Origin: Brachyspira murdochii DSM 12563
GTDB lineage: Bacteria; Spirochaetota; Brachyspiria; Brachyspirales; Brachyspiraceae
Direction: 5' to 3'
Length of the DNA stretch: 64,000 nt
NCBI RefSeq assembly: GCF_000092845.1
Contig: NC_014150.1
Span: 248,001-312,000 of the forward strand
Both the position numbers and the translations under genes were made by a program. This document shows positions 52,495-56,423 of the stretch, one piece after another (the stretch's first letter is position 1; every line of letters begins with the position of its first letter). The notes below the pieces were generated by a model, which saw only the letters and a program-made list of their open reading frames with translations, was not told the origin of the DNA and did not search any database.

Positions 52495-53337
52495 TTATTT
52501 TTTAGAATAATCATAAAAACCTTTACCAGTTTTTTGACCAAGTAATCCTCCGCGAACCATTTTTCTAAGCAAAGCACTAGGTCTGTATTTAGGATCTCCT
52601 GTTTCTTTTTGAAGAACTTCCATAATAGCAAGTACTATATCAAGACCGATTAAATCTCCTAAAGCAAGAGGACCCATTGGGTGATTAGCACCTAATTTCA
52701 TAGCATTGTCAATACCTTCAGCAGAAGCAATACCCATAGAATATAATTCAATACCTTCATTAATCATAGGAACAAGTATGCGGTTAACAACAAAACCAGC
52801 AGTTTCATTAACTTCTACTGGAGTTTTACCTATTTCTTCAGATATTTTGATAACTTTTTCAACAACATCTCTAGGAGTATTAAGACCGGAAATAACTTCA
52901 ACCAATTTCATAACAGGAGCAGGATTGAAGAAGTGCATACCAACAATTGGTCTTCCAATACCAGCACCTATTTCAGTAATAGAAAGAGATGAAGTATTAG
53001 AAGAGAATATACAATCTGGTTTACAAATTTCATGTAATTCTTTGAAAGTTGTTTTTTTAACTTCTAAATTTTCAAAAGCAGCTTCAACTATTAAATCTGC
53101 ATCTTTACAAATATCTTTAAGACCAGTAGTAATTTTAGCTAAAATCTTATCAGCATCAGCCTGCTGCATTTTACCTTTAGCTACTCTTCCAGCAAAACTT
53201 TTAGCAATTCTATCTTTACCGCCTGCAGCAAATTCCTCTTTTATATCGCATAAATAAACTTCATAACCTTCTGTTTGAGCAAAAGCTTGTGCTATACCAG
53301 AACCCATAGCACCAGCACCAATTACACCTACTTTCAT
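52495..53337 (-). CDS. hbd: 3-hydroxybutyryl-CoA dehydrogenase
   Basis: Reduces acetoacetyl-CoA to 3-hydroxybutyryl-CoA in the butyrate pathway. The 280-residue product has the Rossmann motif GAGAMG (residues 7-12), [12 protein letters not shown], the [15 protein letters not shown] active-site block with the catalytic His, and the C-terminal dimer domain with [16 protein letters not shown]. It follows crt by 109 nt on the same strand. AAGGAG precedes the ATG. Confidence 0.96.
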
Positions 53338-54223: not shown

Positions 54224-54244
54224 TAATTTCTCCTTTTATTGCTA

Positions 54245-54678
54245 GTGATAAACTCGCCTACAAATAGCTTATAACTTACTTCGTCAGTTATAAGCTGCTC
54301 GTTTATCACATTATATTGCTAGTGATAAACTCGCCTACAAATAGCTTATAACTTCCTTCGTCAGTTACAAGCTGATCGTTTATCACATTATATTGCTAGT
54401 GATAAACTCGCCTACAAATAGCTTATAACTTCCTTTGTCAGTTATAAGCTGCTCGTTTATCACATGTATTGCTAGTGATAAACTCGCCTACAAATAGCTT
54501 ATAACTTCCTTCGTCAGTTACAAGCTGATCGTTTATCACATGTATTGCTAGTGATAAACTCGCCTACAAATAGCTTATAACTTCCTTCGTCAGTTACAAG
54601 CTGATCGTTTATCACATGTATTGCTAGTGATAAACTAACATATGAATACTTTATCAGTTATAATTACTTATTTATCAC
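54245..54678 (-). repeat. Six-copy tandem array of nested hairpins between thlA and crt
   Basis: Units start at 54245, 54322, 54399, 54475, 54551 and 54627 (period 76-77 bp). Each is a 65-bp palindrome: outer stem GTGATAAAC/GTTTATCAC, inner stem GCTTATAACT/AGTTATAAGC. The sixth is degenerate (52 bp). Units 2, 4 and 5 have AGTTACAAGC; on the minus strand this leaves a G-U wobble, on the plus strand an A-C mismatch. Selection for minus-strand RNA folding is inferred. Connectors read ATTGCTA with small changes. Confidence 0.9.
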
Positions 54679-54729
54679 TTTAAAATTACTACTACTGAAT
54701 AATTTTTTATCAGCAATAATAAAATAATT

Positions 54730-54774
54730 TTTCATATAGCCATGTCTTAAAATATAAAACACGACTATATGAAA
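54730..54774 (-). terminator. Hairpin/terminator after thlA
   Basis: On the minus strand TTTCATATAGTCGTGT pairs with ACATGGCTATATGAAA (two wobbles), followed by AATTATTTTATT, about 85 nt past the thlA stop. It could end thlA transcripts before the hairpin array; the loose T-run allows read-through. Confidence 0.6.
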
Positions 54775-54859: not shown

Positions 54860-56047
54860 TTATTCTCTTTCTACAATAGTAGCACAGCCCATACCGCCGC
54901 CGATACAAAGAGTAGCAAGTCCTCTTTTAGCATTTTTAGCTTCCATTTCATGAAGTAATGTAACTAAAATTCTGCAGCCTGAAGCACCTACTGGGTGTCC
55001 TAGAGCTATAGCTCCTCCGTTAGGGTTAAGCTGTTTTTCAACATCAATGCCCAATTCTTTACCAACAGCAACTGACTGAGCAGCAAAAGCTTCGTTAGAT
55101 TCAATAATATCGAAGTCTTTAATAGTTAAACCTGTTTTAGCCATTAATTTTTTAGTAGCAGCAACTGGTCCGATACCCATAATTCTAGGTTCAACACCGC
55201 CTAAACCGCCTGCAATCCAAGTAGCCATAGGTTTAATACCTAATTCTTTAGCTTTTTCTTCGCTCATTACTACCACAGCAGCAGCTCCGTCATTAATACT
55301 AGAAGCATTACCTGCTGTTACTCTTCCGCCGTCTGGTTTAAAAGCTGGTTTTAATTTAGCTAAAGTTTCTACTGTAGTACCAGGTCTAGGACCTTCGTCT
55401 TTATCTACAACTACTTCGCCTTTTTTAGTTTTTACTGTTACTGGAACTATTTCTTTTTTGAAAGCACCAGATTCTTGAGCTTTAACTGCTTTTTGCTGAG
55501 AATTAGCAGCAAATGCATCTAATTCTTCTCTTGTAAGTTTCCAATCATCACAGATATTTTCTGCTGTTATACCCATATGATAGTTATTGAATGCATCCCA
55601 AAGAGCATCATTAACCATAGTATCAATAATAGTGTCATTACCCATTCTGTATCCGTAACGTGCTTTTTTAAGTGCATAAGGAGCTAATGACATATTTTCT
55701 GTACCGCCTGCTACTACTATATCAGCATTTCCTGCAGCTATCATATTAGCAGCAACATTAACTGCATCAAGTCCAGAACCGCAAACTACATTAAGGGTCA
55801 TAGCTGGTACTTCCACTGGCAAGCCTGCTTTTATAGAACATTGACGAGCAACATTCTGACCTTGTGAAGCCTGTATAACACAACCCATATATACCATATC
55901 AACTTGATTTGGAGCTATTTTAGCTCTATTTAAAGCTTCTTTTATTACTATTGCACCAAGTTCAGCTGCTGGAACTGTACTTAAAGCTCCGCCCATACTT
56001 CCTATTGCTGTACGGCAGGCACTAGCTATTACTATTTTTCTAGACAT
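54860..56047 (-). CDS. thlA: Acetyl-CoA acetyltransferase (thiolase)
   Basis: Condenses two acetyl-CoA to acetoacetyl-CoA. The 395-residue product has the nucleophile Cys89 ([12 protein letters not shown]), His351 in GHPVGASG and Cys381 in CIGGGMG. The ATG at 56047 with TTGGAG upstream is preferred. A TTG five codons earlier overlaps that ribosome-binding site, and the family usually starts at MSRKIVI-like sequence. It is separated from crt by 636 nt with a hairpin and the repeat array. Confidence 0.95.
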
Positions 56048-56423
56048 AATTTTAATCTCCAAAGAATTATTAATTTTTATGCATTTCTATTTATAATATT
56101 AATGCGTTGCTTTTAGTATAATACATTTTTTTATCAATTTCAATTAAATATTACAAATTTTTATTATACCTAACTATAGTATATTATCTGCTTGTAAATT
56201 TACTATAAAAATTATATAATTGATATAATATACTGCTTAAAAATAAACCGAATAATAAATATAATATATACATTAAACAACAAAAAAAGATATAATAATT
56301 TGTTACCAGTTACATTAAACTGTAAATGATAAACAAATAATAAACATTATTTTTATATATTGAAAAATACATATATAAAAATATTATTTCTTTTATTTTA
56401 TTTTATGATAAAATATAAAAACT
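56048..56423. other. Divergent promoter region thlA/mutL
   Basis: 376 nt of AT-rich DNA between divergent genes. GGAG for thlA lies at its right edge. No gene, strong palindrome or clear consensus promoter is seen; several TATAAT-like boxes occur by chance in such composition. Confidence 0.4.

Follow-up and report, generated by a model that had tools for sequence, protein, structure and literature searches.

A tandem hairpin array between thlA and crt of Brachyspira murdochii as a probable copy of a dispersed, mobile-type repeat

Results

The array between thlA and crt

The tandem palindromes between thlA and crt in the 64,000-nucleotide stretch of Brachyspira murdochii DSM 12563 analysed here (the window) are best explained by local amplification of a non-autonomous, mobile-type hairpin repeat that is restricted to Brachyspira; we put the probability of this reading at about 0.78. 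The hairpins belong to a dispersed family that is specific to Brachyspira and mostly intergenic. In other words, what was supposed to be an operon switch is one copy of a dispersed element. The new elements of this work are the repeat family in a gut spirochaete genus and its long, variable target duplications.

The Tandem Repeats Finder program reported positions 54237-54636 with a period of 76, 5.2 copies and 96% matches. The whole array spans 54237-54684 on the minus strand and ends 14 nt before the start of crt, which confirms an earlier statement that it adjoins this start. Six head-to-tail units had been described; the array and its period of 76 were recovered by both Tandem Repeats Finder and a covariance model, but the last unit is degenerate, i.e. 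there are five near-identical nested hairpins (73-76 bp) and a decayed sixth. The unit-to-unit spacing is 77, 77, 76, 76 and 76. The covariance model located units at 54237-54315, 54391-54466, 54467-54542 and 54543-54618 and a weak sixth at 54619-54684, and the unit at 54313/54314-54389 was recovered via BLAST and a whole-genome model search. The features are as follows.

52495-53337, minus strand: hbd (3-hydroxyacyl-CoA dehydrogenase), from the ORF and Pfam PF02737/PF00725
53447-54223, minus strand: crt (enoyl-CoA hydratase), from the ORF and Pfam PF00378
54237-54312, minus strand: hairpin unit 1, crt-proximal, full; covariance model (R1) 103.4 bits; fold -25.7 kcal/mol, z -4.8
54313-54389, minus strand: hairpin unit 2, full, T-to-C and GAG-to-GAT variant; BLAST and genome model search; fold -21.8 kcal/mol
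54391-54466, minus strand: hairpin unit 3, full; covariance model 92.7 bits; fold -26.1 kcal/mol
54467-54542, minus strand: hairpin unit 4, full; covariance model 86.6 bits; 100% identity to units 2 and 5 over 75 bases
54543-54618, minus strand: hairpin unit 5, full; covariance model 86.6 bits; 100% identity to units 2 and 4 over 75 bases
54619-54684, minus strand: hairpin unit 6, degenerate, inner stem lost; covariance model 39.5 bits; fold -10.3 kcal/mol, z -1.8
54685-54726, minus strand: putative 5' extension of the oldest unit (TTTATTATTGCTGATA...), boundaries suggested by comparison with other loci
54730-54774, minus strand: separate stem-loop after thlA, outside the repeat; 20-pair stem
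54860-56062, minus strand: thlA (thiolase, acetyl-CoA acetyltransferase), from the ORF and Pfam PF00108/PF02803

Folded as minus-strand RNA, the full units tested reached -21.8 to -26.1 kcal/mol (z -3.5 to -6.3), and none of the shuffled sequences was as stable. The identity of units 2, 4 and 5 makes the amplification look recent. The 5' extension (TTTATTATTGCTGATA...) repeats, in inverted orientation, the motif TAGCAATAATAA found at the right end of the repeat.

Units could also be counted in other Brachyspira, where the array at thlA-crt proved to be confined to three related genomes, i.e. that of the window (G000), G008 and G015. In G015 there is a single full unit besides a degenerate one, the contigs of G008 break within the array, and in all other readable Brachyspira thlA-crt regions the array is absent. 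No target duplication is visible at thlA-crt itself, and in the species without the array the intergenic DNA has diverged so far that an exact empty site cannot be recognised.

The stem-loop at 54730-54774 behaves differently from the array. A comparable hairpin stands at the corresponding place between thlA and crt in 21 Brachyspira genomes read; its sequence varies between clades and its pairing is kept. In the core, aligned over 15 species, 123 of 129 cells are paired, and compensatory changes at three of the nine pairs lend modest support to the pairing. Should the operon possess a conserved RNA element, this stem-loop is a better candidate than the array for control of the thlA-crt mRNA.

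The repeat family in Brachyspira

The unit consensus is about 73 nt long and consists of two nested stems. The outer stem is GTGATAAAC/GTTTATCAC, with end pairs that are variable but compensated, the inner stem is AGCTGATAACT/AGTTGTCAGCT with a loop around GACGAAGGA, and the 3' end is nearly constant (TAGCAAYAATAA). With one unit as the BLAST query, copies were found in 21 of 26 Brachyspira genomes. A covariance model built from an alignment of 23 family copies had matches in 20 of the 26, with up to 37 copies per genome, and none in 172 other genomes of the same phylum. The search had been proposed for the unit as found here; it returned many copies elsewhere, so that the unit is not unique to thlA-crt. 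An exact 21-base core pattern, compared with 84,980 species, occurred in Brachyspira only, including B. hampsonii, B. alvinipulli, B. innocens and sp. G79. The viral contigs and plasmids searched had no match, so that carriage by a phage or plasmid was rejected, and a known RNA family was rejected as well, since the curated Rfam models gave no match over 10 loci at E values up to 1. We found no description of the family in the literature searched, the coverage of which was incomplete.

The pairing of the hairpin is real and evolutionarily maintained, as seen from compensatory changes. In the 23-copy alignment 96.4% of the cells are paired, and the pairing collapses when the partner is slid. 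Both sides have changed in 6 of the 22 pairs, and the covariation score is 0.153, as compared with 0.075 for shuffled data. The outer stem occurs with GTG, GCG, GCT and GCA, each with the matching change on the opposite arm.

Eighty-three loci were classified by their neighbours, without collapsing orthologues and with genes called by a simple ORF rule: 40 lie between genes that are both sense, 16 between genes that are both antisense, 19 are convergent and 8 divergent. The hairpins often begin 0-27 nt downstream of a stop codon, or stop 13-17 nt short of a start codon. Arrays of 2-7 units are present at 17 of the 83 loci, all 17 of them head-to-tail, with periods of 76-273; in several loci the array spacer is a copy of the 5' flank.

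A second array of the same family occurs in the genome of the window (G000:C1:657375-657792; L004:7376-7792). It has five units, sits between argC and argJ, and its outer stem is GCTATAAAC/GTTTATAGC. At least two further hairpin families (L323, L282, L149, L325; outer stem AAAAATTGT...ACAATTTTT; GCGAGCC...CGAGCATAACAATAATAA) have the right-end motif in common with the first, and at L325 one of them is nested within a copy of that family. In three species (L315, L318, L319) the repeat downstream of bglA encloses a hairpin that resembles a terminator, AAAAAATCGAG...GCGAGATTTTTT.

Occupied and empty sites

At many loci the sequence immediately 5' of the hairpin recurs immediately 3' of the end motif TAGCAATAATAA. 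The flank copy lies exactly at both junctions in 10 of the 83 loci, as against 0.4 expected from permuted flanks (maximum 3); some of these 10 are orthologues of each other, i.e. the independent events are fewer, and most of the 83 loci have no clear flank copy.

Insertion is supported by orthologous pairs of occupied and empty sites. At the 3' end of rsgA, G024 is occupied (X-hairpin-X'-Y), and G022 and G025 are empty (X-Y). The duplication is about 73 bp, and the downstream copy X' passes without a break into the native sequence that follows. The argC site is empty in G005 and occupied in G004, where 41 bp are duplicated; at bglA, G004 is occupied and G021 empty; upstream of flgK, G007 is occupied, with a duplication of about 13 bp, and G025 is empty. 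The target duplications range from about 13 to 131 bp. The 3' end of the repeat is constant and its 5' end variable, with an extra 22 nt at argC and about 54 nt at flgK. These pairs indicate, at some loci, that the repeat entered by insertion with target duplication. We note that at bglA and at an M20-like gene the left junction is common and the right junctions differ between species, which suggests either that later rearrangement is common or that the duplication mechanism is more complex than simple insertion.

At an AlkD-like gene (L290, L291, L292, L294, L295, L296) most of the hairpin was lost in several species through different deletions, which argues against a required role there. Some of these deletions lie between short direct repeats (GAGTTT), as expected of unstable palindromes.

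Discussion

Possible roles of the hairpins as RNA

The preliminary description took the array for a dedicated regulatory RNA, the hairpins of which would attenuate, process or stabilise the thlA-crt-hbd mRNA. We consider this unlikely. It is true that the gene cluster lies entirely on one strand with the array 14 nt before crt, that the stems carry compensatory changes and that the genus-wide excess of sense loci (40 vs 16) goes in the same direction; moreover, every unit folded was more stable as minus-strand than as plus-strand RNA. Nevertheless, an attenuation or processing element dedicated to crt-hbd is not what the comparison of genomes suggests: only three genomes have the array at thlA-crt, the other Brachyspira read retain a different stem-loop there instead, and the same repeat stands at dozens of unrelated genes, often in antisense or convergent positions. 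The hairpins are not followed by a T-run, and the terminator scan gave no terminator-like site at the array, by which an intrinsic terminator is ruled out.

The remaining argument for RNA was the kind of variation seen. That variation preserves pairing is borne out by the two-sided changes across the family, but the T-to-C change cited for it is a single event common to the three identical units 2, 4 and 5, which also carry a GAG-to-GAT change that breaks a pair on both strands. The supposed strand bias of pair-breaking variants depends on the alignment. With one fixed U-G pair left out, the family-wide count of G-U versus A-C is 9 vs 8 on a sequence-based alignment, and 49 vs 21 on a model-fitted alignment, which itself leans to G-U. 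The leading strand is reported to be enriched in G and T in Brachyspira (PMC3163572), and this could mimic a G-U strand bias. The counts being equivocal, we have set this bias aside as evidence for RNA. Altogether a butyrate-specific RNA element is not supported, and an RNA-level role for the family is possible.

Such a role could be a secondary one, the host having recruited a mobile repeat as a 3' UTR or intercistronic stabiliser, and this would be compatible with a mobile-type origin. REP sequences have been proposed as co-opted mRNA stabilisers in this way. The frequent position of the hairpins shortly after stop codons or before start codons would suit this suggestion, as would the pairing kept across divergent copies. 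However, mobility or palindrome-templated repair could likewise maintain the pairing, and the hairpin was destroyed repeatedly at the conserved AlkD-like site, so that we regard recruitment by the host as a tentative possibility.

Origin of the repeats

The mobile-type reading draws on the size and restriction of the family, the compensatory pairing, the flank copies at the junctions, the occupied and empty sites, the head-to-tail arrays, the restriction of the thlA-crt array to three genomes and the losses at the AlkD-like gene. Against it stand the lack of a mobilising enzyme in our searches, the lack of a clear flank copy at most loci, the differences at right junctions between species and, at thlA-crt, the lack of a visible target duplication and of an exact empty site, and the sense excess together with the preserved pairing leaves room for a selected RNA role. 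The mobilising machinery may, among other possibilities, have escaped detection or be extinct.

Could the copies have arisen in place, by replication slippage at pre-existing hairpins and without mobility? Copies of the 5' flank occur as array spacers, and at two loci the left junctions agree and the right ones differ, as this would have it. Slippage predicts the order X-hairpin-X-hairpin-Y, however, and at several loci the final flank copy passes directly into native sequence, no second hairpin intervening; on these grounds slippage alone was rejected. Nor does it account for the recurrence of one 73-nt sequence at dozens of loci unrelated to each other, which makes it improbable as the origin of the repeats.

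Among known systems, REP/BIME sequences (PMC2817692, PMC3733652) resemble the repeat in being short intergenic palindromes of many copies, often near gene ends. They measure 20-40 bp, whereas the Brachyspira repeat has 73 nt and two nested stems. An oriented REP/BIME-like element moved by a RAYT or an IS200/IS605-type Y1 transposase is nevertheless highly improbable: Y1_Tnp (PF01797) was found in 0 of 26 genomes, the controls being positive, there is no GTAG foot (the consensus feet are TTTAAAG and CTAGCAAYA), all 17 arrays are head-to-tail and not alternating as REP/BIME units are, and the flanks carry target duplications. On the missing transposase, the wrong foot and the wrong unit orientation this system was rejected, as far as the sampled genomes go; a Y1 enzyme on a plasmid outside the sample would bring it back into consideration.

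Bacterial MITEs such as Correia, RUP and ERIC-like elements are non-autonomous and hairpin-forming and make short target duplications of fixed length. The Brachyspira copies are likewise non-autonomous and hairpin-forming, and some have inverted ends (TTATTATTGYTA...TAGCAATAATAA). Unlike those of a MITE of a DDE transposon, the target duplications are neither fixed nor short (about 13, 41, 73 and up to 131 bp), and no partner transposon was found among the few pairs examined. A larger autonomous element with the same ends was sought in G009, where 79 end motifs were counted vs 31 in the reversed control, but the inverted pairs examined enclosed ordinary genes or more hairpins; the few pairs examined in this one genome held no recognisable transposase. 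Integron attC sites have two nested stems on one strand and are oriented, as is the repeat, and carry RYYYAAC/GTTRRRY core sites; the repeat consensus has no such sites and no gene cassettes lie between its units, so attC was discarded. Eukaryotic SINEs combine a structured unit, a constant A-rich 3' end and variable target duplications. All three are seen in the Brachyspira repeat, which, however, is bacterial and has no reverse transcriptase match in most copy-rich genomes. RVT_1 was present in 7 of 26 genomes and absent from several copy-rich ones (G009, G004); being sporadic and not matched to copy number, a reverse transcriptase was dropped as the partner, although an extinct or undetected source is conceivable.

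Occupied and empty sites with long, variable duplications thus fit none of the transposition types considered, and the best reading is that such duplications are an unusual feature of a palindromic, mobile-type repeat. According to this mobile-type reading, the first insertion at thlA-crt would have occurred in the ancestor of B. murdochii, B. innocens and sp. G79, and tandem amplification would have followed there via slippage or unequal recombination. New copies may arise through copying that terminates at the constant 3' end, with a join to A-rich DNA. This is the least certain part of the scheme; we infer it because the 3' end is constant while the length of the target duplication varies. 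Strand switching at the replication fork and target-primed copying are the candidates. Any effect on the thlA-crt mRNA would be a by-product of hairpins that are transcribed shortly upstream of the crt ribosome-binding site.

It is conceivable, although rather unlikely, that the repeats stem from a copy-in mechanism of bacteria, either target-primed or strand-switching, by which a structured, single-stranded copy is inserted that has a constant 3' end, with target duplications of up to 131 bp. In that case bacteria would have a counterpart of the spread of SINEs, in which several hairpin families have a common 3' end. The copying mechanism, if real, would be unusual for bacteria.

The arrays of the family are likely to serve as length-variable markers in strain typing. 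The longest array seen (L119; G007:C1:2731998-2732742) consists of seven head-to-tail units with an exact 111-base period and is likely to be a length-variable typing locus.
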